From Bacteroidales bacterium (GTDB lineage Bacteria > Bacteroidota > Bacteroidia > Bacteroidales > P3), in the NCBI GenBank assembly GCA_017480245.1, contig JAFVBA010000012.1, positions 62,001-126,000 on the forward strand: 64,000 bases of DNA. Reading direction: 5' to 3'. Made by a program: the position numbers and the translations under genes. Of the stretch, positions 1 through 61,394 are shown one piece after another (positions within the stretch are counted from its first letter, which is position 1; each line of letters begins with the position of its first letter). The notes beneath the pieces were generated by a model. That model was given only the letters and a program-made list of their open reading frames with translations. It was not told the origin of the DNA and did not search any database.

Positions 1-472
1 TAACAACAATACGGACACACTTAAAGCCGGTTCAATAGTAACTACCTATGCCATGAAACACCTTAGAAACGCTTATGCCAATGTTTTCTTTATCGGACAG
101 AATGGTGGATTTGAAGATGCTACAGATTTAATCAAGCAATTGCAATCTATGGTCAATTACAGTAAATGCGACAAGTACGTTATCATAAGTTTTCATGCTG
201 TCAATAACGTTATGCCAACAGTTGAGAGATTAAAAGGAATGGAAGACTCTTTAGCCTCAGTTTTTGGCAAACACTATTTCAATCTACGGTCATATATGGT
301 TAATAACGGACTGAAAGATGCAGGTATTACTCCGACACAAGCCGATAAAGACTCTATCCTTCACGGACAGGTGCCGCCTTCATTGATGTCGGATAGGGTT
401 CATTTCAATAAAAAGGGATATGAACTTATTGCGAACTCCGTTAAAAAGAAATTTGACGAATTAGGATACTAA
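1..472 (+). CDS. SGNH/GDSL-like hydrolase, C-terminal part (5' end outside window)
   Basis: The reading frame is open from the first bases of the window to the TAA at 470-472, so the gene starts upstream; the ATG at 53 is internal or at best an alternative start. The visible part ends with a DRVHFNKKGYELIAN segment, which matches the D-x-x-H catalytic block V of SGNH hydrolases, placed close to the C-terminus as expected. The Gly-Asp-Ser nucleophile block is not in the window. A full SGNH hydrolase with a comparable DKVHLTVKGYQL block lies at 57.5-58.7 kb, but the two are not near-identical. The substrate (acetylated glycan or lipid) cannot be told. The gene is convergent with the HIT gene, and a palindromic repeat separates them. 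Confidence 0.7.
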   Translation, partial: NNNTDTLKAGSIVTTYAMKHLRNAYANVFFIGQNGGFEDATDLIKQLQSMVNYSKCDKYVIISFHAVNNVMPTVERLKGMEDSLASVFGKHYFNLRSYMVNNGLKDAGITPTQADKDSILHGQVPPSLMSDRVHFNKKGYELIANSVKKKFDELGY

Positions 473-531
473 ATAATAGTAAAACAATTTTAGCAAATTT
501 CTTGCTATAAAACGGCTATCACTTGCTGCAA

Positions 532-594
532 AAATAAAGTGCGTGATTAATTTACTAACCACGCATTTTATTTTGCTAATCACGCACTTTATTT
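532..594. repeat. Palindromic repeat, GTGCGTGATTA subtype (copy 1)
   Basis: Two perfect 18-bp inverted arms, AAATAAAGTGCGTGATTA at 532-549 and its complement at 577-594, enclose a 27-bp spacer that holds a third degenerate arm (CCACGCATTTTATTTT). CTTGCT recurs 21 bp apart just upstream (501 and 522). The element lies between the convergent SGNH and HIT genes. The A-rich left and T-rich right ends would let it work as a two-way intrinsic terminator; that role is inferred. Confidence 0.85.
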
Positions 595-646
595 CAGCAC
601 AATATACATTGAATATAACAAATTATAAATCAACGATATTCAATTA

Positions 647-1039
647 TTACATATTCTTTGCTATATTAGATGCTATTTCTTTGAATTCCTCTTCAGTGAA
701 AGTTATTTTCGCATTTGCAAAATTCAAATCACCTTCTTTTTGCATAGGAACCAAATGTATATGAGCATGACGGACTTCCAAACCGATAACTGCCATTCCC
801 ACCTTAACGCAAGGGTAAGCCTTTTTGATGGCATTGGCAATACGTTTGGCAAAACATATATACTCTTTCAAATCTTCGTCATCTATGTCAAAGATATAGT
901 CCTCTTCTTTCTTAGGAACGACTAATGTGTGTCCTTTTTGCAAAGGAGAAATATCCAAAAAGGCATAAAACTTATCATTTTCCGCAACTTTGTATGACGG
1001 AATCTCACCTGCTATGATTTTTGAGAATAATGATGCCAT
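647..1039 (-). CDS. HIT family (histidine triad) nucleotide-binding protein
   Basis: The 130-residue protein has the standard HIT layout: an N-terminal FSKIIAGEIPSYKV segment, the GHTLVVPKK strand in the middle, and the signature H-x-H-x-H (RHAHIHLVPM) at about residues 90-100. The family binds nucleotides and hydrolyses phosphoramidate or dinucleotide substrates in the cytoplasm; the physiological substrate here is unknown. Length and motif are complete. It lies 4 bp downstream of greA and is almost certainly co-transcribed with it, an arrangement I recall from other Bacteroidota. The ATG at 1037-1039 is the only start that gives the full conserved N-terminus. Confidence 0.93.
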   Translation of the reverse strand: MASLFSKIIAGEIPSYKVAENDKFYAFLDISPLQKGHTLVVPKKEEDYIFDIDDEDLKEYICFAKRIANAIKKAYPCVKVGMAVIGLEVRHAHIHLVPMQKEGDLNFANAKITFTEEEFKEIASNIAKNM

Positions 1040-1043
1040 AATA

Positions 1044-2760: not shown

Positions 2761-5700
2761 TTATTGGAATGAGTTTAAATCCACCGGACGTAAAGCTCCA
2801 AACCATTTAATAAGTTTTTCACCGATACCATCAGCCTTGATATGAATTAAATATACACCTCCTGAAATCTGAAGCCCTCTTTCGTTCTTCAAATCCCAAT
2901 CAATACTTGTTAAAGCTGTACCACCGCCAGATACTAAAGAAGCATCAGGTCCTCTAAGTTTGCGGACAACTGTTCCATCTACGGAATAGATTGTAACATA
3001 ACAAGCAGGAGGAAGATTAGTTATCTTAACTACATTCTCAATCTGATCTCCTTCGTACAAATCAAATGCGAAATATGGATTAGGAACAACCATTATATTA
3101 TCCAATGCACTCTCTGCTATACTTGTAACACCAGTACGTGTTTCAAGGTCTGTTCCGATAGAGAATTCATACATAGGATAATTTGCATTTTGTACTTCCT
3201 CGTCAGATGGCTTGTAATAAGAGTCGTAATTATTATTTGCCCAATACAATTGATAAGGTTTTCTTACTCTTATCTTTACTGTAGCATCCGTAGGAATTAA
3301 TGACGGAGATTTATCTGCGATAGGTTCATTAACACCTTGAGCAAATAACTGTGTCATAGGAGCAGGCATTCCGACCCACATAATAGAAGCAAACAACGTT
3401 TCAACTTCATCTAAAGTCATAATAGAAGTAACACCAGTTACACCGTTAATATCATTGAGTTTCTTCAAAATTGAATGAGCCCAATTACCTTCATCATATC
3501 TTCTTGGTGCAACTTGAACTCCGGCTGCAGAACCGAACTGAGTTCTCATTGTGAATTTGGATGTTCCAATTATATAAACGTAGTGCATTCCACCATAAGA
3601 AGAACCGTTACCTACACTGTAGTAAGAAGGATTCCACATCATATCACGTCCGTTGTACTGACCCAATGAAGAGTTTTCACCGAACATAATATTCAATCTT
3701 TCTCCAGTCTCTACATTTACAGCATATCCAGGGAACCATCCCATACCATAACCGTCATCTTTATTAGCTGCGTCAGATTCAGAATACATTTCATTTCCGT
3801 CTTTATCAACAGAAATATGTTTTCTCAACATAAATTTCTTTGCGCCGTTTTCTGTCATAGTAGTATCTGTTCCCATTTCTATAACAGGGCATCTTGTCCA
3901 TTTAGACTTATCGTTGGTAAATACAATATCAACTGATGCAAGATTATTCAAATCATTATACAATAATGAATTCATCTTTAACGGATCAACCATATCATTG
4001 CTATAACTATCATCGGCAGTCATCAAATATCTGCTTGAGAAAGCAGGATGAGCTGCAGTGAATGAAGTAAGTTTATAAGGAGCCCATGTTCCATAAACGC
4101 AATTTTCAAACTGACTGCTTGGGTCTAAAGCTGCTTTTCCTGTTCCTTTGCCCCAATAATAGTCTGCATTAGGGTCAGTTACCAATGTAGCAGAGTCTCC
4201 TGCTGGTATAGAAGAGCCACTCCTAATCCAGTTAGTAGCAGCAGAAGCATCATTATCTGCAAATCCGTACAACCATGATTGATTTACATCTGCATATTCT
4301 ATGGATGAAGATAAATAAGCACCTGAAGATTTAACTGAATTATTAATATTCTCACCTGAAGTCTCAGAAATATTTATTCTGTTTGCAATAGAATCAACGT
4401 TAGTCAATGATATAGAAATACCCAATGGGAAAATAATCTGTTCATTTACATCTCCAATAGGACGGTCAGAAGAAATTTCATAGATAGCAGAATCTCTACT
4501 GTCCTTATAAAGAGGAGAACCATCAACAGAAGTTATTTGCCATGTACAACTGTCAATAATTGAAGGATTAGTTGCACTTGGTATTAATTTGATATTATAA
4601 TTTCCTTGTTTAACACTCAACGGATCCACTACCTTAATATTAACAGGACCGTAGTTTTCTTCGTATTTAGGATGTTTTATAATATTATTGCTGCCTTGAG
4701 CAAATAAACTGTCTATAGATTCTGATTTCAAATTCAATACCATTCCTCCGTTACCGTTACCTTCTATTCTTATAAGTTCAGGAGAAATTCCATAAGAAGA
4801 TTGAACCAAAGTACCGTTTTGTTCTGCTTCTAACATGTGAGGAATTGCGACAACAGACTCTATACTGCTACCGTCTCCTTTCTTTCTTGAAGGTAGATAA
4901 GGTTCTTTCTGTCCGTCAATCTTTGTTGCGTCTTCTGCATTATAATGTTTGTAATCATTATAAGCATAAGCTATTGCAACATAGTAGTATTTCTTATTAT
5001 TAACAACACGCTTATCAGTAGTTGTTGCAAACTTATCTTCTGTAATACGGAATGAATGTCTAATACCTGAATTTTCACCAGATACCATAGTCTGAGTTAC
5101 AGGATAACCGTCTGTTATAGTAACATTCTTCAATTCAGCAATAGCTGCATTATTTTGTGCAGGGTCATAATTCTCTATATCACACTGAGCAACTAAACGA
5201 GCCTTGCTATTATCATAAATGTCAGCAACAGAAACAGTAGCATCTTTCAATTGGAATATTTGATAACCTTCAAATCTATAGTATCTGTCATATTCATGAG
5301 TAATAGTAGTGTCGGTACCGTCTGCCCTTGTTATAGTTTCAGTCCATTCTCTTGGTATAGTTTGATCCATTGCTCTGAATGATTCATTAACATTGTTACC
5401 AGTTTCATTAGTCAAATAAAGTATAATCTCTCTATCTAACTCCTGAACTACAACATTAGGAGCGTCCGGTCCTTCAAGAACATTGAAGCAATTATCAAAC
5501 AATGCTTGACATTTGTCATCTACCGTACGAAGCAATTCAACAGAAGCCTCTGGACCTCCTGTTACAGCCTGAGCCCAAGGAATACCAACAGTGATATAGT
5601 TAATAGCACCTGGTTTCAAAGTGAAAGGCCCTGCAGATTGCATAAAACGCCTATCTTCTGGTGTATTACCTGCAGTCTGTTCTGTCCAAGGTTTTTTAGA

Positions 5701-7416
5701 ACCTGCAAATTCTTCTTCTCTACCAGATTCTCTTACGCCCCAACCCCATATATCTGAAGTACCAGGGAACATAAAGTCTGCATAAACACCTGCTTCAACA
5801 CCGTCATTATAACCATTTCCTCCGTATAACATTCGAGAGTTATCTTTCCATATACCTCTTAAATAGTTATAATAGTCAGATGCTTTGCTCGGCTCACCAT
5901 TAGATGCTGTGGAATTATTGTAATAAACGAAACGTCTCATACCAAAACGTTCATCATCTACAATACCGTTTCCGAAATTCACACCATTGATAGCACATGC
6001 ATCAACTTCATTCTTTGATTTTGGATACCATGCTCTTTTGTATTTATGAGCATTATCTGTCAATATAATTCTCAAAGAATCACTATCTTTCAATTTTGCC
6101 ATATTAGCAGTATCTGCAAGAGTCAAATTTGCCTGAAGACAATATTGTCCCAATTCTGCTGCGCCATAATTTTCAATGAAAGCTTCTATATCAACTTTAG
6201 GATTATCTCTTCCGTCAGGGTCCATATAAGGTCCTTGGAAAAAGTCAATACCAACAGCTGGAGGATTACCAGAATAGGCACCGGTACCAGGACCGTCTTT
6301 AGCCGTTCCATTATAACAATAACCTAATCCTCTTTCAACATCACAACCAACATAGTCATCTCCTGCAAAACCTAAATCAGGATCTACCCATTGGCTAAAA
6401 TAAGTATTAGTCAAAGTGAATGTTGAACGGTTGATTATCTCGTATGAATAGAAAGTCATATTATTGATTTCATTATTCATAGTGAAAGCAAATGCTTGGG
6501 CACGTATCTCCAAACCGATAGGATTTTCTGAACCGGACTCTGTGTGAGCAGCTCCTTTATCATTGAATATCCACCACAAAGTTTCATCGCCTTTCAAAAC
6601 TTGATCGACCAACAAACCTCCGTATGCAGCTATTTTACCACCTGTTCCGTAGTTTGAATTAGTTGAGTCAGACTCCATTGTAGGAGTAGGTGTATATGGA
6701 CTACCTGCAGGTAACTCGGCCTTTATCTTTGCAGGACAAAGTTTGCCTTCAAAGTCATAGTAAGGATAATCTCCTTGTTCAGGTTCGTACTTTCCATTTT
6801 TATTCCAATCATAGAAAGGTGCAAGGAATTTAGATTGTTTTAAAGAAGTGTTTCCGTTTCCAGGCCAATTCTTTATAACATCCGTAAATGTTTCAGGGTC
6901 ATAAGTTCCGGCAATAGGCTTACCTTCACCATCCTTAGTAAAGGAATTTATAAATGCTTGAACTTCAGCTTTGGTTACTCTGTAAAGTTTATCCCACTCA
7001 TCACAAACGGCTTTATTTACAGAAGCATTACCATCTACAGTTAATGGACCAGGCCAAAAGTCATCTCCGGATTGTCCGAATCTCAAAGCAGCTACACGCA
7101 ACTGTTGATTCTCATCTTGTCCTCCGATCCATAATGCAGCACAATACATTGCAGTACTTGTTCCGTCTTTAGGAACATAGTATTGCGTATTAGCTCCGTC
7201 ATACCACATATTACCTCCTTGATTAATACGGGCGCGGACATTGTTTATACTTAATTCTGCAGATCCCTGTGCTCTTCTACAAGTTACGAGATCTCCGTCT
7301 GCTTTTGTTACTGCTCTTTTAACAACTTTACCTTTATAAGGCAAAGCATCTGCTGACATGCTAACAAAGCATAAACAAAGCACTAATACCGATAATTTAC
7401 AAACAATATGTTTCAT
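2761..7416 (-). CDS. Giant secreted protein with C-terminal T9SS/FlgD-like sorting domain
   Basis: The 1551-residue product begins with a clear signal peptide (MKHIVCKLSVLVLCLCFVSMSADA); this ATG is preferred over one seven codons upstream because it gives a normal n-region and follows GAAAGAG. The mature N-terminus contains NQGGNMWYDGANTQYYVPKD and AALWIGGQD, which I recall from large cargo proteins of Bacteroidota and Ignavibacteria. The middle has fibronectin/Ig-like segments. The end (VVPNPYFAFDLY, VTIYSVDGTVVRKLRG, ISGGVYLIHIKA) is a T9SS type A or FlgD-like domain. It does not stop at the usual basic end but continues about 15 residues (KWFGALRPVDLNSFQ). Its place 13 bp after a TonB receptor and 51 bp before a PorV/PorQ-like gene suggests one surface system. 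Function unknown. Confidence 0.85.
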   Translation of the reverse strand: MKHIVCKLSVLVLCLCFVSMSADALPYKGKVVKRAVTKADGDLVTCRRAQGSAELSINNVRARINQGGNMWYDGANTQYYVPKDGTSTAMYCAALWIGGQDENQQLRVAALRFGQSGDDFWPGPLTVDGNASVNKAVCDEWDKLYRVTKAEVQAFINSFTKDGEGKPIAGTYDPETFTDVIKNWPGNGNTSLKQSKFLAPFYDWNKNGKYEPEQGDYPYYDFEGKLCPAKIKAELPAGSPYTPTPTMESDSTNSNYGTGGKIAAYGGLLVDQVLKGDETLWWIFNDKGAAHTESGSENPIGLEIRAQAFAFTMNNEINNMTFYSYEIINRSTFTLTNTYFSQWVDPDLGFAGDDYVGCDVERGLGYCYNGTAKDGPGTGAYSGNPPAVGIDFFQGPYMDPDGRDNPKVDIEAFIENYGAAELGQYCLQANLTLADTANMAKLKDSDSLRIILTDNAHKYKRAWYPKSKNEVDACAINGVNFGNGIVDDERFGMRRFVYYNNSTASNGEPSKASDYYNYLRGIWKDNSRMLYGGNGYNDGVEAGVYADFMFPGTSDIWGWGVRESGREEEFAGSKKPWTEQTAGNTPEDRRFMQSAGPFTLKPGAINYITVGIPWAQAVTGGPEASVELLRTVDDKCQALFDNCFNVLEGPDAPNVVVQELDREIILYLTNETGNNVNESFRAMDQTIPREWTETITRADGTDTTITHEYDRYYRFEGYQIFQLKDATVSVADIYDNSKARLVAQCDIENYDPAQNNAAIAELKNVTITDGYPVTQTMVSGENSGIRHSFRITEDKFATTTDKRVVNNKKYYYVAIAYAYNDYKHYNAEDATKIDGQKEPYLPSRKKGDGSSIESVVAIPHMLEAEQNGTLVQSSYGISPELIRIEGNGNGGMVLNLKSESIDSLFAQGSNNIIKHPKYEENYGPVNIKVVDPLSVKQGNYNIKLIPSATNPSIIDSCTWQITSVDGSPLYKDSRDSAIYEISSDRPIGDVNEQIIFPLGISISLTNVDSIANRINISETSGENINNSVKSSGAYLSSSIEYADVNQSWLYGFADNDASAATNWIRSGSSIPAGDSATLVTDPNADYYWGKGTGKAALDPSSQFENCVYGTWAPYKLTSFTAAHPAFSSRYLMTADDSYSNDMVDPLKMNSLLYNDLNNLASVDIVFTNDKSKWTRCPVIEMGTDTTMTENGAKKFMLRKHISVDKDGNEMYSESDAANKDDGYGMGWFPGYAVNVETGERLNIMFGENSSLGQYNGRDMMWNPSYYSVGNGSSYGGMHYVYIIGTSKFTMRTQFGSAAGVQVAPRRYDEGNWAHSILKKLNDINGVTGVTSIMTLDEVETLFASIMWVGMPAPMTQLFAQGVNEPIADKSPSLIPTDATVKIRVRKPYQLYWANNNYDSYYKPSDEEVQNANYPMYEFSIGTDLETRTGVTSIAESALDNIMVVPNPYFAFDLYEGDQIENVVKITNLPPACYVTIYSVDGTVVRKLRGPDASLVSGGGTALTSIDWDLKNERGLQISGGVYLIHIKADGIGEKLIKWFGALRPVDLNSFQ

Positions 7417-7450
7417 AACTCTTTCAATATTTCTCATTATTAACTACTCT

Positions 7451-10400
7451 TTAGAAACTATATGAAACTCCTATTTCAAATCTTCTTGGAGAAGCATAGT
7501 TATAAGAACCATTATCCAAATACATGAAATAATAGTTTCTGTATGCCTTTTCATCCAATTGAGTTCTGATTATTGTCTGAGTTTCAGGGTCTGTCAAATA
7601 ACCATTATCGTCAGGGTCTCCTGTTACACCGAAAACTCCCGTAATATTCTTAGTATCAAGAAGGTTATATACAGTACAGAAAACATCTAAATAGGTATTA
7701 CGTTTTCCAACCTTAACTATGAATGTCTTATTAACAGTCATATCCAAACGGAATATCCAAGGCAAACGGGAACCACGGTAACTACCAACTATAGTACTTT
7801 GAGTTTGACTGAAATATCTCGTATAAGGAGCTCCAGATTCTGCCAAACCTGTAATATTAACACCAAAGTTTTGTAACCATTTGATAGTTCTAACTTTGTC
7901 TTCTTCGCCGTTCTTACCCTTAACTATTTTCTGAGTTACAGGTCCATTGTATTTGTCTCCACCAGGGAAACGGAAATCCAAACCTAATTTAAATGCATGA
8001 CGTCTATCATCACTAATAGGGAACATCATCTTAACATTAGGATAACCTGCACGAATCAAAGAAACTATTGTTGATGTAGGCAAACCTGTTGTTCCTTCTG
8101 CATATTGAAGGGTATAGTTAGCATTGATTCTAACATTCTTTGAACGTCTAAGGTCGTATCCAATAGTCAAACCTTTCGTTGTTCTGAAATCTTGGTTATC
8201 ATAAGAATAGTACATAGTAGTAGGGTCAGCACCTGTATATTGAACCAAATTAATAAGGTCTCTTGTCTGTTTATAGTATGCAGAAATTGATAATGCAGAA
8301 CTTTCGGAAAGAACCTGTTGGAAACCTAATTCATAGTTGGTAATCTTTTCAGGTTTCAAATTAGGATTAGTAAGTGCTGCACCATCCATCTTCTCCATAA
8401 ACAAATAACTTGAGTAACTTGCCATCCATGTACCAGAACTTGGTCGGCGGGCAATAATATCATAAGATGCTTTAAACTCAGATTTATCAGATACAGGGAA
8501 TGAGAATGCAATACGAGGCATAGCTACAACTTGCGGTTCATAGTCTTTGAATGCATCTGTACTAATATTTTCAGGCAAACCAGTATCTCTTAAAGCGCCT
8601 TTTCTAAACGGCAACGGTTGTCCTGAAGCACCTTTTACTTTCTGAGGGTCAGAAACAATCTCTCCACTTGCAGCATACCATGTAGAAGCAGAACCTTCTC
8701 CAGAACGGTAACCAGTAATTTGAACACCTAAGAAGTTTTCACTCAAGCTACTATTCAAAGTATTTACATAAACTATAGCATCATTAGGAACACCTTCAGG
8801 AATATCTGTTCTTCCGTTAGCTTTCAAATCTGCAACAGTGTAAGCACTATATAGCAAATAAGGATCTTTCATACCCATTTGATTTCCATCAAATCTATCA
8901 ACACGAACACCTATATTGAAAATCAAATCTCTGAAGTTAAACTGGTCTTGAATATATCCTGCCATATAGATTGGCTGCCAAGCGCCTAATTCTCTTTTTC
9001 CGTTCGTACCGTTAAAATAATCTTGCAAAGAAGTCTTGCCTGATAACTTCTTTCCAGTATAATCATATCCTAAGAAAGAAACAACTGAATTACCTTGATT
9101 ATACAACTCATCTGCAGAAAACATATCCAAAGAAAATGTTGATGGGTCATATTTATCAATATCAATATAGTCAGTTCCGCTTAAATTCATTCTCTGTCTG
9201 AACTCTCTGTCAAAATAAGTCTGAGAACCTTCGTCTATATTTCTTTCGTAAGAAACAACCGGATAATATCCACTATAATCTATTATAGGATTATCCAAAT
9301 TTCTATATAATATATGTTGATTTGCTTCTTGTCTCATTAAAGTCCATAAACTTCCTGCAGCTAAACTATATGACCTATAAATTTGTTGGTCATACTGGAA
9401 TCCTAATTCCAAAGAATGCTTACCAATACCTGCAGTTATCTTTGCCGTAGCATAGATAGACTGTTGCTCTGCTTTAGAAAAAGAAGTAGAAGGAACTCCT
9501 ACATTTGTATACATGCCGTAAATAGAACCAGGAGTATCTCCATTAATCAAACCATTATATGCTCTTATATTAACGTAGTTAATCCAAGCTGATCTATAGT
9601 CAGCAAACATCTCGTCATTATACAATTGATTAGTATAAGCAGCTAAACCAGGATTATCATCTGAAGGTGTAAAATCTACTTGATAATCTAACCAACCATT
9701 CTGTTCATAAACATATTCCTCAAGTCCGTCTCCGTCAATATCCATCTTGGTTAAAGCATAAGTAGGACGTTTATGTGTTACGAATGTTCCTATATGACCA
9801 TATCTAAAGAAGTCATCTTTAAAATTCTTATTATATGTCTCAGAATATTGACGTTGATAAGAACCTAACAAACTAAATACAACATCCTTAATTTTAGAAC
9901 TTCCCTCATTTGAAGATAATCTCTGAGAGAAGTCAGCCATAATCTGAAAACTATTGCTTTTGCTCTCACTATTATTATCATTATTCAACAACATTGAAGC
10001 TAAACTACCATTCTTACCTATACTATATATATATTCTCCATTAATTTTCAATGCTGTTGTTTCTGTAGGTCTGAAATCCAAACCACCCTCTAAATAAACA
10101 GTATTAGACCATAAGTTAGGCTTACGTCCTACTCTCTTAAAATCATCTGCAGTAAGATAAGAAGCCGCATACTGTATAGAACCCGTAGTAGGGTCTAATA
10201 CTAAAGGAGATTGTTCTATTCTTTGACGAACATCATCTTTAGACATAAAATACCATCTATCCTTAGGTCTTCTGTAAGGGTCATGAACGTATGATTCAAA
10301 ACCACTTAAACGGAAACCTAAAATAGTTTTTTCCGAACCAGTTTCACTCGTCTTTGTCCAAACAGGACCGGTCAAATAGAATTCACCTCTATGATAACCA

Positions 10401-11134
10401 CGGGTATCAAAAGGTTCAGAAGTTCTATAAGAAACCATTACTTCAAATTTATTCTGTGGCGGTCTTAATGTAACCATTGTTGAACCTCCGATAGCTTCAC
10501 CAATACTTGCAGGTGTTCCCCCAAGAATAACTTGAATTTCCTGAATTGCAGATTTTGGAACATTTACAGAGCCTTGCTTTTTAGCTCCATTAACGTAGTT
10601 CTGCATATCAGATTCACCTCTGGCACTACCAGCGCTTCCGTCTCCGTTATCTGTAATACCACCGACAGAAGCAATAATACCATCAACAGAAGTTGCAGAC
10701 ATTTTTTCAATTTCTTCTGCAGAAAGACGTTTTCCTTGCTCTGCCGCTCCGATATCAATCAACGGAACTGCACGCTCTACGACTTCAACAACATCCAACA
10801 TTTCTGAAGTAGGTTCCATTTGTATGTTACCTTCTCTTGAGAAACCTGATGCGGAAACCTTAATACCAGTCTTTAAAACGGATTTATACCCCATAAAAGA
10901 AGCCTGCATGTCATATGTACCAGGATTCAGATTCTTGATTTGGAAGTTACCGTCTATATCCGTAGCGGCACCTCCCATCTGCTGTCCGTTCTGAGTTACA
11001 ATGACATTAACAAATGGCAAGGGTTCTCCTGTTTTTGCATCGGTAATCGTACCAACCAGGATGCCCTGTGCGATTACCAAATTGGCCGTAATTAACAGCC
11101 CCAGCGTAATTAATATTCTCTTAAGCATACTCAT
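7451..11134 (-). CDS. TonB-dependent receptor with N-terminal carboxypeptidase-regulatory-like domain
   Basis: The 1227-residue outer-membrane receptor has a signal peptide (LKRILITLGLLITANLVIAQ), a carboxypeptidase-regulatory-like Ig domain at about 25-115 (GTITDAKTGEPLPFVNVIV, DIDGNFQIKNLNPGTYDMQ), a plug at about 130-230 (SAIQEIQVILGGTPASIGEA) and a long barrel ending in an aromatic strand (RRFEIGVSYSF). The fold resembles SusC-like receptors, but no SusD lipoprotein gene is nearby. The partners are a small membrane protein upstream and the giant T9SS-type protein and PorV/PorQ-like porin downstream, so it may serve that surface system rather than glycan uptake. The substrate is unknown. 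A second in-frame ATG two codons on (MLKRI) is an equally good start. Confidence 0.92.
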   Translation of the reverse strand: MSMLKRILITLGLLITANLVIAQGILVGTITDAKTGEPLPFVNVIVTQNGQQMGGAATDIDGNFQIKNLNPGTYDMQASFMGYKSVLKTGIKVSASGFSREGNIQMEPTSEMLDVVEVVERAVPLIDIGAAEQGKRLSAEEIEKMSATSVDGIIASVGGITDNGDGSAGSARGESDMQNYVNGAKKQGSVNVPKSAIQEIQVILGGTPASIGEAIGGSTMVTLRPPQNKFEVMVSYRTSEPFDTRGYHRGEFYLTGPVWTKTSETGSEKTILGFRLSGFESYVHDPYRRPKDRWYFMSKDDVRQRIEQSPLVLDPTTGSIQYAASYLTADDFKRVGRKPNLWSNTVYLEGGLDFRPTETTALKINGEYIYSIGKNGSLASMLLNNDNNSESKSNSFQIMADFSQRLSSNEGSSKIKDVVFSLLGSYQRQYSETYNKNFKDDFFRYGHIGTFVTHKRPTYALTKMDIDGDGLEEYVYEQNGWLDYQVDFTPSDDNPGLAAYTNQLYNDEMFADYRSAWINYVNIRAYNGLINGDTPGSIYGMYTNVGVPSTSFSKAEQQSIYATAKITAGIGKHSLELGFQYDQQIYRSYSLAAGSLWTLMRQEANQHILYRNLDNPIIDYSGYYPVVSYERNIDEGSQTYFDREFRQRMNLSGTDYIDIDKYDPSTFSLDMFSADELYNQGNSVVSFLGYDYTGKKLSGKTSLQDYFNGTNGKRELGAWQPIYMAGYIQDQFNFRDLIFNIGVRVDRFDGNQMGMKDPYLLYSAYTVADLKANGRTDIPEGVPNDAIVYVNTLNSSLSENFLGVQITGYRSGEGSASTWYAASGEIVSDPQKVKGASGQPLPFRKGALRDTGLPENISTDAFKDYEPQVVAMPRIAFSFPVSDKSEFKASYDIIARRPSSGTWMASYSSYLFMEKMDGAALTNPNLKPEKITNYELGFQQVLSESSALSISAYYKQTRDLINLVQYTGADPTTMYYSYDNQDFRTTKGLTIGYDLRRSKNVRINANYTLQYAEGTTGLPTSTIVSLIRAGYPNVKMMFPISDDRRHAFKLGLDFRFPGGDKYNGPVTQKIVKGKNGEEDKVRTIKWLQNFGVNITGLAESGAPYTRYFSQTQSTIVGSYRGSRLPWIFRLDMTVNKTFIVKVGKRNTYLDVFCTVYNLLDTKNITGVFGVTGDPDDNGYLTDPETQTIIRTQLDEKAYRNYYFMYLDNGSYNYASPRRFEIGVSYSF

Positions 11135-11157
11135 ATAGTGTTATTGATTTATATTCA

Positions 11158-11484
11158 TTATTTATAAGGTCTGTCTAATATAGAAGAATAGATAACTGCT
11201 TTTCTTAGATTAAAATCACTCATATCTTTTTCTTCCGTTATCGAATTAGTTCTGATTGTATTATCTCTTGAAACAGTTTTCTTTTCTTCATAATTATTAG
11301 TTTCGTAATTATTAATTATAGGGTCTTTTTTTACTTCCTGCTCATCACCTTGAGAAGAAAACATTTTTGCCCAATCATCAAAAACAGTTTTTCCTCCTGT
11401 GGAATTATCCTCAGGATTCTTCTTTATCTTAGAAAGAATAGAAACAACTGCTCCGATTAATAATACTAAAACTAAACCTTCCAT
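11158..11484 (-). CDS. Small single-pass membrane protein of unknown function
   Basis: The 108-residue protein has one N-terminal membrane segment (MEGLVLVLLIGAVVSILSKI), a charged and Asn-rich linker at about 25-85, and a short ordered tail (MSDFNLRKAVIYSSILDRPYK). The tail resembles a conserved end I recall in small Bacteroidales proteins of this kind, but I recognise no family. It would be anchored in the inner membrane with the tail in the cytoplasm or be a short anchor for a partner. It lies 23 bp upstream of the TonB receptor and downstream of secDF, so it could belong to either unit; the hairpin at 11493-11526 favours grouping with the receptor. Confidence 0.75.
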   Translation of the reverse strand: MEGLVLVLLIGAVVSILSKIKKNPEDNSTGGKTVFDDWAKMFSSQGDEQEVKKDPIINNYETNNYEEKKTVSRDNTIRTNSITEEKDMSDFNLRKAVIYSSILDRPYK

Positions 11485-11492
11485 ATTTATAT

Positions 11493-11526
11493 AAGAGTCT
11501 CACGGTAAAATAACCGCAAGACTCTT
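11493..11526 (-). terminator. Hairpin between secDF and the small membrane protein gene
   Basis: AAGAGTCT at 11493-11500 pairs with AGACTCTT at 11519-11526, and an inner CGGT/ACCG stem continues it after a 2-nt internal loop. The following minus-strand tract is AU-rich but not a clean U run, so partial termination or mRNA stabilisation is as likely as full termination. Confidence 0.6.
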
Positions 11527-11533
11527 TGTTCAT

Positions 11534-14500
11534 TTATTTTTTATCACTAACAACTTCTTTGTTTTTTCTTGTTATCAAATAGTAAGCAGTAGGACATGCT
11601 ACACACAAAGATGCAAAACATCCAGTTGCAATACCGATGAACATTGAGAATGAAAATCCTCTCAAACCTTCACCACCAAACAAGAATATAATTAACAATG
11701 TCAATAATGTTGTTCCCAATGTATTGAATGTACGGCTCAATGTTTGATTCATTGCATCGTTCATTAACTTACCGTAATTCTCTTTAGGGAATAGTTTAAC
11801 ATTCTCTCTTACACGGTCAAACACAATAACAGTATCGTTGATTGAATAACCGATAACCGTCAATACAACGGCAACAAACTGTTGATCCACCTCTAATGTG
11901 AATGGCAATATCTTATTGAATAAAGAGAATGCTCCGATAGTTATCAACGCATCGAAAGACAATGATGCCAAACCAGCCAAACCGTATTGCCATTTATTAA
12001 ATCTTATAGCAATGTAGATAAATATCAATACCAAAGATATAATAACTGCAATGATTGCAGAGCGTTGAATATCCTCCGCCATAGTAGGTCCGACTATTTC
12101 AGAACTGATAATTCCCAAAGGAGAAGTTTCAGTTGATTGGAATTTTCTTTCAGTTATGGATTTATCTTTGAATAAATCTTTAGTTCCGTTAAACAATTTG
12201 GAGATAACCTCACGTTTAACTTCTTCACTGTCTTCTTTTACTTTATAATCGGTAGTAACCTTTACTTGATAGTTTGGTCCGTAAGTCTTAACCTCAGGAG
12301 CAGAACCAAATTCTTTTGTCAAAGATGATTTTACATTTTCTGGAGTAACATCTTGGTCAAAACGAATCACATAAGTTCTACCTCCTGCGAAATCAACACC
12401 GAAGTCTAAGCCTTTAATAGCCAATGAACCTATTGCAAGCAATCCTAATATTGCAACAACAATCATTTGTTTCTTGTGAGTTCCTACGAAATTAACTTTA
12501 GGATTTTCTAAGAAATGCTGAGTAAGTTTAGTATAGAATGCAATGTTTGCTTTCTTTTCACCTTTGCGGTTTAACAATGCTTCAAAGACTAATCTTGAAA
12601 TAAAGATACCGCAGAATAATGAAGTAAGGATACCTATACATAATGTAATAGCAAAACCTTGTACAGGACCGCTACCGAAATAAGCAAGAACGATACCTGT
12701 CAATAATGTAGTAACGTTACCGTCTATAATAGCGGAATATGCAACTTTGTATCCGTCAGCAATAGCACTCGCAATATTCTTTCCTTTTAATATTTCTTCT
12801 TTTACACGCTCATTAATAATAACGTTGGCATCCACAGCCATACCCATAGTAAGTACAATACCTGCGATACCAGGCAAAGTCAATACTGCGCCCAATGATG
12901 CAAGAACTCCGAATAAGAAGAATAAGTTACAAATCAATGCAACACATGCAGCAATACCGGCAGTGCTGTAGAAGAATATCATATAAATAAGTACAAGAAT
13001 AAATGCAAATAAGAATGAAATCATACCAGCTCTGATTGATTCTTCTCCTAATGAAGGTCCGACAACAGACTCCTGAACGATTTTTGCAGGAGCAGTTAAT
13101 TTACCTGACTTTAATATATTTGCTAAGTCCTTAGTTTCATCAACGGTGAATGAACCTGAAATTTCAGAACGTCCTCCAGTGATTTCGCTATTAACTCTAG
13201 GTGCAGAATAAACTGCGCTGTCCAAAACGATAGCGATACATTCTCCTTTATGATTTGCAGTTATCTTTGCCCATTTACTTGCAGCCTCACTCTTCATTAC
13301 CATTGTAACAACAGGGTTACCTTGTTGGTTAAAGTCATCTTTAGCATCAGAAATAACATCTCCGTCTAACAAAGCAGCACGGCTTTTATCCAAATGAATA
13401 GCATAAAGTTCGTATTGATTGGTCTTATTAATAGGTTTAGCACTCCATAAGAACATTATGTCTTTAGGAAGTACCTTACAATCTTTCAATAATCTTGTAA
13501 TCTCATCTTTATTAGCAGAAGATGCAGTACCAACAGCTAATGTCATCTGAGGATTTCCGAAAGAAGAGAACAATGATGTCAAAGGATGAGATTTTTGTAC
13601 AGCAGAAAGAGTATCATTTGCTTTTGCAGAATTTTCTGCTAATTCACTTACACTCTCAGTTGAAGATTCAGAATTAACTTCGGTTGATTTTCCGCTATTA
13701 ACAGCAGCCAACCAAGAATCTGCCTCCTGAATAGCTTTATATGCTTTATTCAAATCTTTCTCAACTAACCAAAATTGCAACTGAGCGCTACCTTCCAAAA
13801 GTTTAGCTACACGTTGAGGGTCTTTAATACCCGGAAGTTCTATTGCAATTCTCTCAGATTGGTCTAATTTCTGAATTGTAGGTTGTGCAACTCCGAATTT
13901 ATCTATACGTTTTGATAAAACCTGAAAAGTTCTTTCGTAAGAATCCGTACATTCTTTTCTAATTGCACTTATAACTTGGGAATTTGAAGAAGTGGCTGTA
14001 ATTCCTTTATCTTGTAATTTAACTCTGAAAAATGAAGAAAGGTCAATTTTTTGCTTATTATTAGCATTATTAACCGCTTTTTCAAAACAATCTATATACT
14101 TACCTCCGTCGTTGCGGTGGATTGTTGTTGCATTGTCAATCAGAGAAACTAAAACAGGGTCGTTTGGATTAATTGCTAAATTTTTGATAACATCAACGGT
14201 TGAAACTTCCATCATCACGTTCATACCGCCCTTTAAGTCCAAACCTAAATTAATTTCTCTTGCCTTACATTCTTTGTAAGTGAATTTACGCATGAATAAG
14301 AAATTGTATACCGGCTGTTCCGAAACGGAATCAAGGTAAGCATTTTCTCTTGCGCTTGAAATTGAATCAAATACTTCTTGATAACGTAATTCGTTACCTT
14401 CAGACAATTTCTTTGCCTCGTTTTGTGCGAATTGGTTTGTTGCATATTCTTTCGCATTTGACTCTACCCTTTTGGTAAAGTACGTGAAGGAAAGTTGATA

Positions 14501-14557: not shown

Positions 14558-14604
14558 ATATTTTTATTAAATTTTTATTAGTTTTCATTAGTTTTTTAAA
14601 GTTG

Positions 14605-14612
14605 CAAAGTTA
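14605..14612 (-). promoter_or_regulatory. secDF: secDF promoter, -7 box TAACTTTG
   Basis: The minus strand reads TAACTTTG, a match to the Bacteroidota -7 consensus TAnnTTTG, 48 bp before the secDF start. No good -33 TTTG at the usual 19-20 bp spacing is visible. Confidence 0.5.
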
Positions 14613-15073: not shown

Positions 15074-15081
15074 TATCTTTG
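15074..15081 (+). promoter_or_regulatory. MFS transporter promoter, -7 box TATCTTTG
   Basis: TATCTTTG matches TAnnTTTG and lies 32 bp before the ATG at 15114. No clear -33 element is visible. Confidence 0.5.
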
Positions 15082-47770: not shown

Positions 47771-47833
47771 TACCAAATTCAGAATTTTGCTTACCAAATA
47801 CCGAAATTATCTTACCAAATCAATTATTTATCT
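47771..47833. repeat. 21-bp tandem units with TACCAAAT at the gene end
   Basis: TACCAAAT occurs at 47771, 47792 and 47813, exactly 21 bp apart, and the terminator hairpin continues the array on the left. The last unit overlaps the end of the response-regulator frame (TGA at 47820-47822). Confidence 0.8.
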
Positions 47834-51594: not shown

Positions 51595-54500
51595 TTATTT
51601 TCTTTCGCTGTTTGAATTTTCAAAATTACTAAAATAATCCGAAATCTTCGTTTTGTAATAAGGAGAATACATCGCAGGAATTTTTCTGAACAATTCAGTG
51701 TCCCTACTTTTCAATTTCTTAAATTCTTCAAACGCTGCATTGCCATTTTTCTGCTTATCAACTCCCGTTTTGGACTCGCGCTTTTCTTCTTTGTCCTTTT
51801 TCATTTCGGCTTTTTCGCTTTCAAGCATACGGGTTAAGATTTGCTTTTGACGGTTAAGCGTTTGAGTGTTTATTCTCTTATTTACAATATCTTTTTCGGT
51901 ATCTTCCATTTGTTTAATTGCCTTGTTCATATCTCCGGCTGCCTTTCCTCCGTCTTTTTTCAACTCGTTAAGATACTCTTGCATCATCTTTCGAATCATT
52001 TCTTGCTGTGCGGCGGCTTTAGCCAACCTTTCGTTGAGTTCTTTTCCCTCTCCGATTTGCTGTTTATTCTGATTACCGCGTTTTTCCAACTCTTTGCTCA
52101 AACGTTCTATCTCATTGTTCAACGCTTCCTGCAATTGACGCATATTTTTAGGGTCTTTACCCTGCTTACTTTGCGAAGGATTGTTGCATTGATTCTTCGC
52201 ATTTTTGCTACTGCTCTTTTTGTTGCTGCGCATTTGCTGTTGCTGTTGGTTCATCTTGTCAAGACTTTCGGCAAGTAGTAACGCAAGATTGTTCATTGAG
52301 GACATGGAATACTGTTGTGAAGTTGCGGCTTGATTATTCTTATAATTATTATAGTAACTTTGGTTAAAATATAACAGAGAGGACAAAGTCTTTTCTATAT
52401 TTTCGGAAACCTTGAACGTTTCATCGTTAATAGTTTTTGAAACCTGCGGTTGGCGTTTGCTAATGGCGTAAAGACTGTCCGAAATGGTCTGCATACTTTC
52501 TTTAACCGTGTTTTGCGAATTGATAATCTTCTGATAAGTCGGGTCAGTTACGGAAGTTTTTTGCGTAGAATAAATAAGGTCTTCCTGTTTTTTGGAAAGA
52601 GTAACCAAATTCTTCAATATCTGGCGCACATCTTCAATATCCTCAGCCAATTGTTCCTCTTGGCTTTCTTCCATTGCCTGTTCCATTTGCTGAGCCATCT
52701 CCTGCATTTGCTCTGATGCTTGTTTTTGATTTTCGGATGCTTTTTTGTTTTTGTTATTCTTCAGATTATCCTGCGCTTGTTTCTGTTGGGAACTGATTTG
52801 TTGCTCTTTTTGTTTGTCTTGTTTGAAATTGAACGGGTCTTGCAACTGATTGTCTTTCTCTTTGGTCTCATCCATCTTTTTTTGCAAGTCCTTAAATTCC
52901 TTGTTCAACTCTTCCTGACGGCGTTGTAAGTTCTCTTCGGAATCTTTCCTGTTTTTGGTGTCTTCAGATAACTGTTTTTGTTTTTCAGACAACTCTTTAA
53001 GTTTGTCAATACTCTCATTAATATCTTTTTCTACGTCCAAACGTTTGTAAAGTTCCAAATTCTTGTCCAGTTGTTTGGATATATCCTCGTTTTTCTTGGA
53101 AATATTCTTCAGTTGTTCGTTAATTTGGTCTTTATTGAGGTTTTTGTCCATCAGTTGTTCCATTTGCTTTAGCAATTCTTCCAAATCCTTATTCTGAAGT
53201 TGCTTAAACAATTCTTCAATCAGCTTCTGCTTTTCCAAAAATTCCTCGTCAATATCTTTATATTTCTTTTCCAATAAAGAATTTTCCTCTATCTTCTTTT
53301 CTATTTCGTTTATCTTATCCTGAATCTCCTCTTGTTTTTGCTTCAATTGCTGTAAATCTTTCTCGTCTTGCCAAGAGAGTTCTTTCTTTTCGGTTAATTT
53401 CTTTGTCAAATCGTTTATTTCTTGTTGCAATTTGCGGATTTCGTCCAACGTTTTGTCTGCACCTTTCTTTATGTCCTCACTGTTTTTACTCAACTTCTCA
53501 TCTAACTGTTTTTCTGTCGGAATATCAACAGTAAATGTCTGCGATTTAGTGCTTTTTGCTCCATTTATAGCGTCATTATCCCACACTTCAAACCAATAAT
53601 CCGCTTTATCACCTTGTTTGATACCGTATTCGCTCAAATTTTCTGCATGATAAAACTCCTGGGTACTCTCATTGTCGGTAACAGGTAACTTTTTAGTATA
53701 GATTTTTGCTTGATTGCTGTTTTGAGGAGTGATTTTCAAATGAAATTCCAACCTGGAAAATCCGTAATCGTCCTTTATCTGACCACGGAAATAGATATTA
53801 TCAACTATAAGAGTGTCCTTCTGCTCTATAACGGCGATAAACGGTTTTTCGTCAGCCACGGTATTGATATTAAACGCTATGCTGTCCGAAGAAACTGTGA
53901 ATTCGTTCTGCGTTTTTATAACAACGGAAGTATTTTCCCTGTAAGTTGCAGGAACATTAACCAATCCTTTTTTATCGGGAGTAAATTCAGTTGAAATAAA
54001 GTGCCACTTCAGTAAATTGTTTTCTGAAATCATTTTACTCTTTTCTGAAAACAATCCCATAGAATGCGATGTTATTAAAACCTTACTGCAATCTTTGGTT
54101 CTCAAATGCCAAATAACTTTAGTACCCTGCGGAACGGACAAATCGGTTACATTGTTTATCGTCTCGTTTTTAATATGTGTGTAAGCAGGATAAACAATCT
54201 CCGCACTTAAATCAGTAAGTATCGGTTTTGGATTGACTGTTATTTGATAGATTTTGCTATATACGTCAGCCGCTTCAAATTGTACGGGAATGGTTTTCTG
54301 AATCTGTGAGATAATATAAGAAAAATGCGTTTTATCTTTCTTTTTCATCTCAAAGGTTTGTCCGTTTATCACGGCATTGACCCTTTCGGGAAGAATATCT
54401 CCTTTAACCGTTACTTCTATTTCATAATCGCTTTGTTGGACTGCCGTCAAAGGTGAAGTGATTTCAAAAGAAAACGGCGCAGGTTTCTCATAAAATGTAT

Positions 54501-58746: not shown

Positions 58747-58753
58747 CGAAATA

Positions 58754-59464: not shown

Positions 59465-59514
59465 TTTTCTTATCTGTTTTAACCAAATTGAGTGCGAAAT
59501 TACGGAAAATTCCT

Positions 59515-59522
59515 TATTTTTG
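59515..59522 (+). promoter_or_regulatory. -7 box TATTTTTG upstream of the RluA-like operon
   Basis: TATTTTTG on the plus strand is 20 bp before the ATG at 59543 and matches TAnnTTTG; a TTG lies 24 bp further upstream, longer than the usual spacing. Confidence 0.45.
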
Positions 59523-59542
59523 CCGAAAATTTAGGAAATAAA

Positions 59543-60430
59543 ATGAAAATTGAGGTAAAACAGGATGCGAAATTACTGGATTTTGTATTGAATTACTTTC
59601 CCGAAGTATCGGTAACAAAAGCCAAGAAAATGATTCTTTACAATTGTTTCTCAATGCAAGGAGCGAGTTTAAAGAGTTTTGAATTTATTTTACACAAAGG
59701 CGACACTATTGAATATCAAAAGTACAGTGGCGGGCAGCATATAGCAAAAGAAAAAAGAGATATTGCAATTATATATGAAGACAGGGATATTATAATTGTC
59801 AATAAGCTATCCGGGCAAAGTGTTACGCAATATAAAGACAAGAAAGAGGATACTTTGCTAAGTATGACCAAAAGTTATTTGAAAAAGAAGTATCACCGCA
59901 ACGACTTGTTCGTAGTTTTTGCTCCGCAGACCGAAGAAAGCGGAATTGTTCTGTTTGCTAAAAACCGTCTGGTGCTGAATTGGTTGAATAACCAGGCGGA
60001 AAGTTTCAAATTCAACATATCTGCCGTTGTGGAAAACACATTAAAACATAAGAATGATAAGATTCGTTTCAATGTTGTCAATAATAACGGTATTTATTCC
60101 ATAGCAGACAAAGACGATAAGGCATCGCAGGAAGTTTTTTTGCAATACACTACCGTTGAAGACTTGAGTATGGGAGATGAAGACTATTTTCAAATCAATA
60201 TAACCCAAACGGGCGACAAACCGTACTTAAATCGTTTTCTTTTGTCGCAAATCGGCAATCCTGTATATGGAGATAATGCCTTTCATAAGCAAAAACAAGG
60301 AAATAAAATCTTAAGATATTGCGTTTATGGAATGGAGTTGTTGCGCCCGAGTACAAATAAAAAATTGAGAATTGAGACAACACTGCCGAGAAATTTCGAC
60401 TCAATAGCTTTACCGGCCAATAAAAAATAA
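59543..60430 (+). CDS. RluA-family pseudouridine synthase homologue lacking the catalytic Asp
   Basis: The start at 59543 (MKIEVKQDAKLLDFVLNYF) gives 295 residues with an S4-like N-terminus (VSVTKAKKMILYNCFSMQGA) and an RluA fold (IAIIYEDRDIIIVNKLSGQS, then KPYLNRFLLSQIGNPVYGDN). In motif II, where active enzymes read HRLDRDTSG, this protein reads FAPQTEESGIVLFAK: the catalytic aspartate aligns with glutamine, and the Arg and Asp after it are also changed. The fold and the GNPVYGD segment are kept. It is therefore probably an RNA-binding protein without synthase activity. It is the first gene of a four-gene plus-strand operon. Confidence 0.85.
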   Translation: MKIEVKQDAKLLDFVLNYFPEVSVTKAKKMILYNCFSMQGASLKSFEFILHKGDTIEYQKYSGGQHIAKEKRDIAIIYEDRDIIIVNKLSGQSVTQYKDKKEDTLLSMTKSYLKKKYHRNDLFVVFAPQTEESGIVLFAKNRLVLNWLNNQAESFKFNISAVVENTLKHKNDKIRFNVVNNNGIYSIADKDDKASQEVFLQYTTVEDLSMGDEDYFQINITQTGDKPYLNRFLLSQIGNPVYGDNAFHKQKQGNKILRYCVYGMELLRPSTNKKLRIETTLPRNFDSIALPANKK

Positions 60431-60458
60431 ACAGTAAATAAATAAAAATACAGATAAA

Positions 60459-61394
60459 ATGAACGATAACCTTAATAACTTAAAATCAAAAACCGAAGAA
60501 GCATTGCAGCAACTTTTCGTTTGTTTGCAGGAAAATCAAACGTGCAATGAAATTCTTAAATTAGAGGAAAAAATAGATTTGTTATTGCAAAATACTAACG
60601 AAATCCTGCGTCAAAACAAAGAGATAATATCTCTGACTAACGAGGTTTTGAATAACCAAAATAAAGTGCCGTTTTACGAAACTAATTTCAAAAAAGAATC
60701 TACTGATTTCAAAAAAGATTTTACTGAAACGCCACCTTATTTTGAGGAAAAGCAAACAAAAGAAAATGAATCTGTTACCAAAGAATCAGAAGAGGTAAAG
60801 AAAGAAGAAGAAACTAAGAAAGAAGAAAGCGTTTCTTTGGAACAGCAGATAGTTCAGACGCAAAAAGAAATAGAAGAGTTGCAAAGACAACGGGAAGAAG
60901 CCCAAAAGGCAGAACTAACTGTTGAAGAAGAACCGAAAGAAGAAGAGAAACCTCAAGAGCAGCAAAAGACATCTTCCGTTTTGGAGTTTCTGCACAAAAG
61001 AGTTATCAAAGACAAAACTACAGAAGACATAAAAGAACAGCAAAACGAAGAATCACCACAACCGTCTGCCATAAGAAACTTAACAGAACAGATAAAAGCG
61101 GAAGCAAAACAGTCTTCGGAGAAAAAACCGCGCTCAATAGCCGAGCAGTTTGAGGACAGAACGAACAAAGATTTGCTTTCGGCAATAGGAGTAAGCGAAA
61201 AGTTTATGTTTATCAATGATTTGTTTTCTGGAAGTATAAAAGACTACACAGAATTTATCAATGATTTGAACTCAAAGGCGGATTTGCAGACATCTTTATC
61301 ACAAATGGAAATGATGCAAAAACAAAAAAAATGGGCTAAAACATCATTAGCTTATACGACATTGGAAAATATAATAACAAAAAGATTTGAATAA
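60459..61394 (+). CDS. Coiled-coil protein of unknown function containing a repeat-encoded insert
   Basis: The 311-residue protein has a short alpha-helical start (NLNNLKSKTEEALQQLFVCL), a Lys/Glu/Gln-rich coiled coil at about 95-190, and a conserved C-terminal domain at about 215-310 (RTNKDLLSAIGVSEKFMFIN, FSGSIKDYTEFINDLN, AKTSLAYTTLENIITKRF). I recall the last domain in uncharacterised Bacteroidota proteins next to gmk. Residues at about 68-95 (KVPFYETNFKKESTDFKKDF) are encoded by a complete 86-bp repeat element. It lies 3 bp before gmk. Its function is unknown; the coiled coil suggests a structural or scaffold role. Confidence 0.85.
   Translation: MNDNLNNLKSKTEEALQQLFVCLQENQTCNEILKLEEKIDLLLQNTNEILRQNKEIISLTNEVLNNQNKVPFYETNFKKESTDFKKDFTETPPYFEEKQTKENESVTKESEEVKKEEETKKEESVSLEQQIVQTQKEIEELQRQREEAQKAELTVEEEPKEEEKPQEQQKTSSVLEFLHKRVIKDKTTEDIKEQQNEESPQPSAIRNLTEQIKAEAKQSSEKKPRSIAEQFEDRTNKDLLSAIGVSEKFMFINDLFSGSIKDYTEFINDLNSKADLQTSLSQMEMMQKQKKWAKTSLAYTTLENIITKRFE
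60658..60743. repeat. Complete palindromic repeat embedded in a coding sequence (copy 8)
   Basis: An 86-bp element starting AAAATAAAGTGCCG and ending CACCTTATTTT, the same length as the type element at 46573. Its inner modules ATTTCAAAAAAGA recur exactly 21 bp apart (60685, 60706). It is read through in frame by the coiled-coil protein and encodes the 7-residue pattern NFKKEST / DFKKDFT. Confidence 0.9.

Follow-up and report, generated by a model that had tools for sequence, protein, structure and literature searches.

The DNA analysed here is a 64,000-nucleotide stretch (the window; G000:C11:62001-126000) of G000, a 1.75-Mb Bacteroidales metagenome-assembled genome that is 70% complete. Together with a genome-wide sample of twenty 20-kb stretches of G000 (400 kb outside the window), it reveals that the sampled chromosome carries one continuous, phase-coherent 21-bp sequence lattice, a result about which we have hardly any doubt. 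The gene set consists of mechanical, uncurated picks of open reading frames (ORFs). The 80 best named relatives of the window's mnmG product come nearly all from Bacteroidales or unclassified Bacteroidetes, many of them from animal guts. The lattice was described with a hidden Markov model of 21 states that has separate tables for intergenic DNA and for each codon position per strand. The features of the window are listed below, with a strand where one applies.

1 to 64000: the 21-bp lattice, about 3040 cells by length, 2445 of them confidently located by the hidden Markov model; mean spacing 21.023 bp
12200 to 64000: phase track traceable across genes on either strand with only occasional breaks (lowest strength around 32-36 kb)
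14897 to 14964: A-tract/T-tract units (A6-CTAT/CTC/CAG-T7) repeated as an array every 21-23 bp, sharing the register of the flanking lattice
19425 to 19513: four intergenic palindromes, A5-CCTATG/CATAGG-T5, 22 bp apart, with centres on the lattice dyad
501 to 594: two copies of CTTGCT (both at state 13) and tandem copies of 21 bp, at the end of a gene
27303 to 28287: GTTTAGGG, CTCTAAAC and GGGTTTA pairs on the same or adjacent states, inside the nuclease-domain gene 25577-28423
28483 to 28523: two adjacent cells with core TTTTCAGAAAA (TTTTC at state 7)
46600 to 46640: two adjacent cells with core TTTTCAGAAAA (state 7)
47771 to 47820: three cells with TACCAAAT (state 2 each)
54020 to 54051: TTTTCTGAAA pair within a gene (both at state 7), equal to the lattice core consensus
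60681 to 60727: ATTTCAAAAAAGA pair within a gene (both at state 7)
2761 to 11134, minus strand: two long genes of 1558 aa (no Pfam match) and 1227 aa (outer-membrane beta-barrel type), lattice weak or undetectable
31965 to 39670, minus strand: genes including type IX secretion GldM, GldK and PorP, third-position GC 0.17-0.30, lattice mostly weaker

The initial annotation had drawn attention to short words recurring 21 bp apart at unrelated loci. All of these words are present with the positions and spacings given for them, and the 22-bp arrays at 14897 and 19425 as well as several of the 21-bp pairs were also detected by Tandem Repeats Finder. Autocorrelation of the window peaked clearly at lag 21 and at multiples of it, within coding sequence as well as in intergenic DNA. 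At lag 21, the genes of the window contained 31 runs of at least seven matching bases versus 9.6 in codon-shuffled genes (z 6.9), and lags 42, 63, 147 and 168 likewise reached z >=4. The spectral lines of the window fall on harmonics of 1/21 (7.0, 10.5, 2.62, 4.2 and 5.25 nt). Across the 400 kb outside the window, the 25 top lags were all multiples of 21 (among multiples-of-3 lags to 640); 19 of the 20 stretches reached z 7.5 to 23, and one, L016, reached 0.6. The period holds genome-wide, within and between genes, and its length is two helical turns, as had been supposed.

The proposal that the loci share a module length rather than a sequence did not hold. The cells follow a common degenerate 21-bp profile with dyad symmetry, whose core is the quoted TTTTC(TGAAA). 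In eleven of the 13 quoted pairs or triples, all copies occupy one and the same lattice state; in the other two, the states are neighbours, with posteriors of 0.63-0.89. TTTTC begins at state 7 at 28492, 46600 and 54020, and so does ATTTC at 60685. The quoted words are cells of the lattice, the visible tip of a larger pattern.

Read 5' to 3' from state 5, the consensus cell is Y R A W T T S N S A A W T Y R N T R Y A N. It is two-fold symmetric about its S-N-S centre, and this dyad combined with the periodicity creates a second dyad at the R-Y step, 10.5 bp away. The intergenic profile correlates with its own reverse complement at r 0.974; the symmetry was not imposed, and intergenic DNA is a small part of the data. 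The cell is thus a two-fold symmetric site repeated at whole helical turns, with a spacing of 21-22 bp. Its fundamental is at 21.02 with harmonics at 10.5, 7.0, 4.2, 5.25 and 2.6, and it does not have the single-turn period of ~11 bp. The strongest line of G000 besides the codon line is the 7.0-bp harmonic, and W centres alternate 8 and 13 bp apart; in the related genome G001, the 10.5-bp harmonic exceeds the 7.0-bp one.

The signal is carried mainly by third codon positions, with 2.4 bits per 21 nt at third positions, 1.2-1.6 bits in intergenic DNA, and 0.42 and 0.29 bits at first and second codon positions. These few bits do not make neighbouring cells recognisably similar copies, as in a tandem repeat, with few local exceptions. 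The first model gained 10,552 nats on 464 kb. A strand-tied model, started from the held-out model described below and trained on 19 loci excluding the window, gained 10,265 nats in training and 1226 on the untrained window; within its cell, GC swings from 15% to 73% at third positions and from 15% to 52% in intergenic DNA. Earlier untied DNA-level models fitted plus-strand genes worse than minus-strand genes, a difference that strand-tying abolished. Codon-only models produced odd +4-codon slips and apparent 8/13-nt offsets, both of which were resolved at the DNA level.

Might the pattern instead reflect protein heptads, helix periodicity or a codon-level periodicity of translation? Amino-acid matches show a slight excess at spacings that are multiples of 7 residues, and the three reading frames are not occupied equally by the lattice. 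However, third-position matches at 7-codon multiples are ~0.320 versus 0.290 (z 18), with no decay to 70 codons, and the same amino acid takes the same codon with probability ~0.49 versus 0.43. The held-out model, whose start values came from a model trained with the window included and which then went through 8 re-estimation rounds on 16 other-contig loci, gained 1139 nats on the window and 1122 on its reverse complement, and lost 580 on the reversed window. When synonymous codons were shuffled inside each gene, the window lost 424 to 468 nats in all four shuffles. Because the shuffles keep proteins and codon usage identical, protein repeats are not the source; in coiled-coil or heptad coding repeats, the signal would have survived them. 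The pattern also crosses frames and strands and is present in intergenic DNA. We regard this explanation as refuted here.

The lattice holds its register along the chromosome, across genes on either strand, the DNA between them and promoter regions. Cells are 21 bp long, occasionally 22 and almost never 20, with per-nucleotide step rates of 0.0022 for -1 (a 22-bp cell), 0.0001 for +1 and 0.0004 for a random jump. Almost every stretch shows a slow fall in phase, interrupted by plateaus where the period is exactly 21; in the window, the drift is -71 nt over 63.8 kb (mean period 21.023), with unwrapping uncertain in the weak 2-11 kb part. Rather than persisting for only ~100 bp, register is traceable through most 20-kb stretches and the window. 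To measure continuity across gene gaps, each gene end was phased from its own 450 nt alone, with a profile trained on 19 of the tested stretches and not on the window's contig. Both sides were confidently phased at 202 of 325 gaps, and they agreed within -4 to +1 nt at 196 of these 202, compared with 52 of 187 shuffled partners. This separate phasing supersedes an earlier figure of 134/134, which came from a continuity-favouring model. Agreement was 49/50 for ++, 88/93 for --, 33/33 for +- and 26/26 for -+ gene arrangements, and 74/77, 63/65 and 59/60 for gap lengths of 0, 1 and 2 modulo 3.

Phases taken from genes only predict the composition of 18,176 intergenic bases (r 0.97), whose GC runs from 11% to 50% by state. 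The lattice score averages 0.056 in the interval from 21 to 40 nt upstream of starts and 0.06-0.08 elsewhere upstream, at most a shallow dip; downstream of stops it is 0.04-0.105. The seven-codon length had been offered as a reason for in-frame tolerance. As a cause it fails, since gaps of 0, 1 and 2 modulo 3 are all continuous, while a partial locking of the lattice by the reading frame does exist. The lattice is in frame class 2 just 14% of the time, and its stepping rate there is about threefold higher (0.199 versus 0.057-0.064 per 99 nt). We read this uneven dwell as codons locking the lattice at 21.0, equal to 7 codons, where they fit. Hairpin formation, which had likewise been linked to the period, is not required to account for the pattern.

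The initial annotation had favoured slippage or template switching with a fixed step, and tandem duplication by 21 bp would act alike. Some adjacent cells are near-identical. Alignments of orthologs between G000 and nine or more genomes of its genus (the alignments overlap) contained 101 gaps; ten of the 22 gaps of at least 6 codons measure 7, 14, 21 or 28 codons, as expected from duplications or deletions in register or from tolerance of such events. However, gaps were mostly short, with 44 of the 101 being one codon long. The words are not separate local events, because the phase is kept across 196 of the 202 gene gaps, whatever the frame or strand arrangement. The genes share a single symmetric profile that stays coherent over tens of kilobases and across gaps regardless of their length. 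We therefore regard slippage as extremely improbable as the main cause. Some in-register duplication or deletion may occur besides the lattice. As a separate observation, indels of multiples of 7 codons may preserve register or arise through 21-bp slippage.

The palindromes at 19425 belong to a dispersed family with at least 46 matches on both strands of G000. Among 41 genomes, the same 22-bp array family has at least 33 matches in G013 and at least 14 in eight others. Its units are A-tract/T-tract palindromes centred on CCTATG/CATAGG or CCATGG in G000 and on CATATG in G013, and a second array type has CTC/CTG/GAG cores. Scanning 530 kb with a strict pattern yielded 17 arrays, whether the gap was tandem, convergent or divergent, but not the one at 19425. 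Three of the 17 lie inside predicted ORFs (one long, two of <90 aa), and at least one is of another sequence type. With the array masked, both flanks placed the palindrome centres on the dyad in eight of eight cases (state 12 +- ~0.5, counting 22 bp per unit). The register drop across the array was 4 in six of them, 5 in L006, and 2 at window 14897, whose right flank is poorly phased. Among further array loci, 13 of 14 agreed within ~1.5 states from both flanks (15 were tried; L154 held no array text). These 14 include repeats: L163 and L167 have identical array sequences, as do L178 and L180, and L177 is the same place as L005.

Many of the intergenic 22-bp palindrome arrays in G000, G013 and G001 (L002-L008, L153-L181) form whole-array inverted repeats, and the core letters vary by species (CCATGG-like, CATATG or CTG). 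The L163/L167 and L178/L180 pairs of G013 are identical arrays with matching flank phases on different contigs, pointing to duplication of a segment or in the assembly; G013 contamination is 9%. Two exact array patterns found no match in viral contigs.

Orthologs inherit the register despite heavy divergence of their synonymous sites, but more distant lineages differ in it. Orthologs for register were the best match of >=50% identity per genome; third-position identity was taken over any BLASTP match, paralogs included. Register was kept within one state at 0.92 of 6268 codons in G001, where chance is 0.14, and at 100% in G004 (707 codons) and G011 (940 codons). It was kept in part in G007 (0.58), G009 (0.55), G002 (0.54), G005 (0.53), G006 (0.41) and G008 (0.23). 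Third-position identity at conserved residues was 0.35-0.46 from G002 to G012 (0.51 in one G010 stretch), with 0.44 in G004 and 0.37 in G011; composition alone would yield ~0.27. Since register is retained despite such low identity, most of the pattern must have been rewritten where it stands. Relative to G000, register was at chance in G013 (0.14) and below chance in L052 (0.04; Bacteroidales Hs463_bin99, JAISLH010000089.1). Both bear the lattice, but out of register with G000, so gene function does not fix the register.

The distribution of the lattice was examined with combs of exact and free period and with the G000 profile held fixed. With the exact-21 comb, five of ten same-genus genomes reached z 10-12, four 2.9-5.9 and G013 0.9; ten genomes of other genera stayed at z <=2.4. 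Among named loci of >=6 kb (74/80), L052 reached 11.7 and L098 4.1, the rest <=2.5. The free-period comb (named loci of >=12 kb, 67/80) gave 21.00-21.22 for genus genomes (z 4.9 to 83) and 21.10 for L052 (z 17). Outside the genus, it gave 21.16 for the family member G027 (z 7.7) and, as a borderline case, 21.32 for G022 (z 5.0). Other best combs, at scattered periods up to z 4.7, look like chance. Weak combs are unreliable: besides L052, the best combs of 66 named loci reach z 4.7 at varied periods, and overlapping stretches of one genome (L047, L051) yielded periods of 21.10 and 21.94. G018 and G032 (z 4.2 each) were accordingly not counted as lattice-bearing, and G007 (4.9), G012 (5.3) and G022 are borderline on the comb alone. 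L098 (Paludibacteraceae, horse faeces) has a lone 21-nt comb and no clear profile match (static z 1.1).

Controls started from scrambled profiles relearned much of the wave, and the profile tests hence rest on the fixed profile only, as does all scoring of G014, G015, G036 and G057. The family members G014, G015, G033 and G036 are taken as wave-free. In 11 of the 13 genus relatives, the unchanged G000 profile outscored each of four scrambled ones. Against five scrambles, three G013 stretches matched it with z 7.5, 14.0 and 9.5 at a period of 21.2, and L052 with z 15.1; ten negative loci including L016 had |z| <=1.3. The exact-21 comb had suggested that G013 is free of the lattice, but the free-period comb and the profile show the lattice there. 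An artefact of assembly, binning or data has next to no credence with us. G000 is an incomplete assembly from a metagenome, as noted above, but several other genus genomes and the public record L052 show the wave, long open frames run uninterrupted, and lineages differ in register.

Among the sampled stretches of G000, L016 alone lacks the lattice. Its positions 7164-19565 form a 4133-aa open frame with MuF_C, PBECR2 and MutS_I domains and an ART-PolyVal match below cut-off, which we interpret as a polyvalent protein of a phage or mobile element. This single example is as expected if newly arrived DNA is imprinted slowly. An unmarked phage-like stretch and a lineage-specific pattern would also suit a recognition code that labels the cell's own DNA, for instance in defence or DNA uptake. 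Such a mark would need no single continuous register, though, and the unmarked stretch persists in the genome. We consider a recognition code highly unlikely.

We propose that the lattice is caused by an array of a putative dimeric DNA-coating protein, to which we assign a probability of roughly 0.65. A contiguous, two-fold symmetric lattice on one face of the helix with 21/22-bp steps is what a dimer array on B-DNA would leave. We also count in its favour the loss of signal on synonymous shuffling, the register kept across gene gaps, the palindrome arrays on the dyad, the register retained in G004 and G011, and its re-setting in G013, where the profile is the same. Symmetric dimers would bind contiguously, one per two turns of B-DNA and all on one face, with contacts between neighbours setting the 21-22 bp spacing and carrying register across indels. 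The palindromic arrays may be high-affinity cells that seed or fix the register, or may simply be the best cells of the lattice. Occupied DNA would slowly gain preferred bases where the protein code allows, and newly arrived DNA would not yet be imprinted; effects at first and second codon positions and the unmarked phage-type DNA fit such a slow imprint. The pattern could be written by position-dependent mutation or repair or by weak selection for binding, and the resulting sequence would in turn hold the lattice in place.

A stronger version, in which the nucleoprotein lattice is self-templating, is more tentative, and we place it somewhat short of even odds. Array and sequence would imprint each other, and register would outlive individual bases, run on unbroken across genes, heal across indels and be re-settable as a whole upon a change of period. 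In favour of the protein array itself, five of eight informative comparisons between relatives with unequal gap lengths had the following gene in step with the lattice, against two in which it kept to the sequence and one in which it did neither. In 59 polarised four-fold substitutions, the mean pattern effect was -0.154 +- 0.115 versus -0.417 if they were lattice-blind; that they are less damaging to the pattern than random is only suggestive.

Several observations weigh against the protein array. The gap-length comparisons are small in number and not independent, as they share genomes and G002 and G006 are much alike, and the polarised substitutions are few. Six in-gene indels split into two that follow the lattice, one that follows the sequence and three that do neither. 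The register of the L176 array fails from the left flank and agrees from the right only. G010 and a 6.8-kb G003 locus score no better with the profile than with scrambles, so that the profile is not genus-universal. The weak regions at 2761-11134, with confident lattice fractions of 0.05 and 0.18 in the two genes, and at 31965-39670 are not explained by foreign origin. Intergenic amplitude is below third-position amplitude, contrary to expectation for a mutational imprint that is purely neutral.

Neither did searches for HU, PF00808, Hc1 and basic ORFs identify the protein; Fis was not looked for. HU (PF00216) is present in 40 of 41 relatives, with or without the wave, and its copy number does not track it. 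The archaeal-type histone PF00808 was found in 0 of 14 genus genomes, the 70%-complete G000 included, and Hc1 was likewise not found in these 14. Very basic small ORFs, sought in ~30% of the genome, gave no candidate. An alignment of HU (L184-L203) revealed one paralog with two sub-types that are confounded with phylogeny; the two G015 rows are not HU. The sub-types begin MTK... in the aligned genus genomes and G016, and MNK... in G014, G018 and G023. G014 has 25 HU-like matches; an HU-family match at G014:C8:6654-6914 has one in-frame TAG. The two weak regions of the window share low third-position GC and do not look foreign.

The main rival to the protein array needs no such protein. Selection for intrinsic curvature or supercoil shape at two turns would amplify the ordinary 10-11 bp periodicity. 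According to the text available for one paper, bacterial genomes are usually ~11-bp periodic over ~100 bp (PMC4132750). The strength of the signal is graded, with the weaker 21-bp combs of G027 and perhaps G022, and the 10.5-bp harmonic is strong, above the 7.0-bp one in G001. In G000, however, the 7.0-bp harmonic is the strongest after the codon line and W centres lie alternately 8 and 13 bp apart. Curvature needs no register over tens of kilobases, no continuity across 196 of 202 gaps and no steps of 21 and 22 only. In genomes free of the wave, combs close to 22 do not exceed the best combs that chance produces. We therefore consider this structural explanation unlikely, less so than the other rivals.

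If the protein array is real, a bacterial genome would record its own DNA packing base by base over nearly the whole chromosome, and packing would shape synonymous codon choice and, weakly, protein sequence. This would offer a sequence-only assay of chromosome architecture for uncultured bacteria and a natural system for asking whether packing biases mutation or is selected. Analyses of codon usage and selection in such genomes are confounded by the positional wave.

Among known systems, nucleosome and archaeal histone patterns show AT/GC alternation imprinted by bound protein, with periodic mutation around nucleosomes; nucleosome register spans single nucleosomes with a 10-bp period. We read the lattice likewise as an AT/GC imprint of a bound protein, but unlike in archaeal-histone chromatin, the genus genomes searched had no PF00808 match. 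Fis and HU are dimeric nucleoid proteins able to coat DNA side by side at about two turns, with one Fis dimer per ~21 bp, and to our knowledge, neither has a genome-wide sequence register. Iteron, parS and palindrome arrays consist of tandem 22-bp palindromic sites in intergenic arrays. Unlike these, tens of arrays occur here in G000 and G013, in register with the surrounding chromosome.

The continuous coat proposed here resembles the Bdellovibrio nucleohistone filament, in which, in the portions of the paper available, a bacterial histone coats straight DNA continuously with one dimer per 2.5 bp in vitro; its main text, as far as available, does not use the terms 'periodicity' or 'sequence preference' (PMC10627809). 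Divergent 400-600-bp repeats are described in the accessible text of a study of E. coli and nine other species (PMC10341722). Among the papers listed in a full-text literature search, with bioRxiv preprints and most subscription papers outside its reach and two of its listings confined to the top 20 of 890 and 12 of 94 papers, none described a 21-bp or kilobase-coherent wave in a bacterial genome. A non-tandem pattern that keeps register through genes, gaps and strands over tens of kilobases fits no kind known to us or found.

The nearest kind is the 10-11 bp helical periodicity of prokaryotic genomes, described in the available parts of two papers as an A-tract 'structural code' (PMC4132750, PMC7537859). 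Like that periodicity as presented there, the lattice is helix-related, strong at third codon positions and present in coding and non-coding DNA. Theirs spans one turn (~11 bp) and is ~100 bp long, whereas the lattice cell spans two turns, has 7-bp and 10.5-bp harmonics and internal dyads, and keeps its register over tens of kilobases. The lattice could be viewed as an extreme of ordinary helical periodicity.

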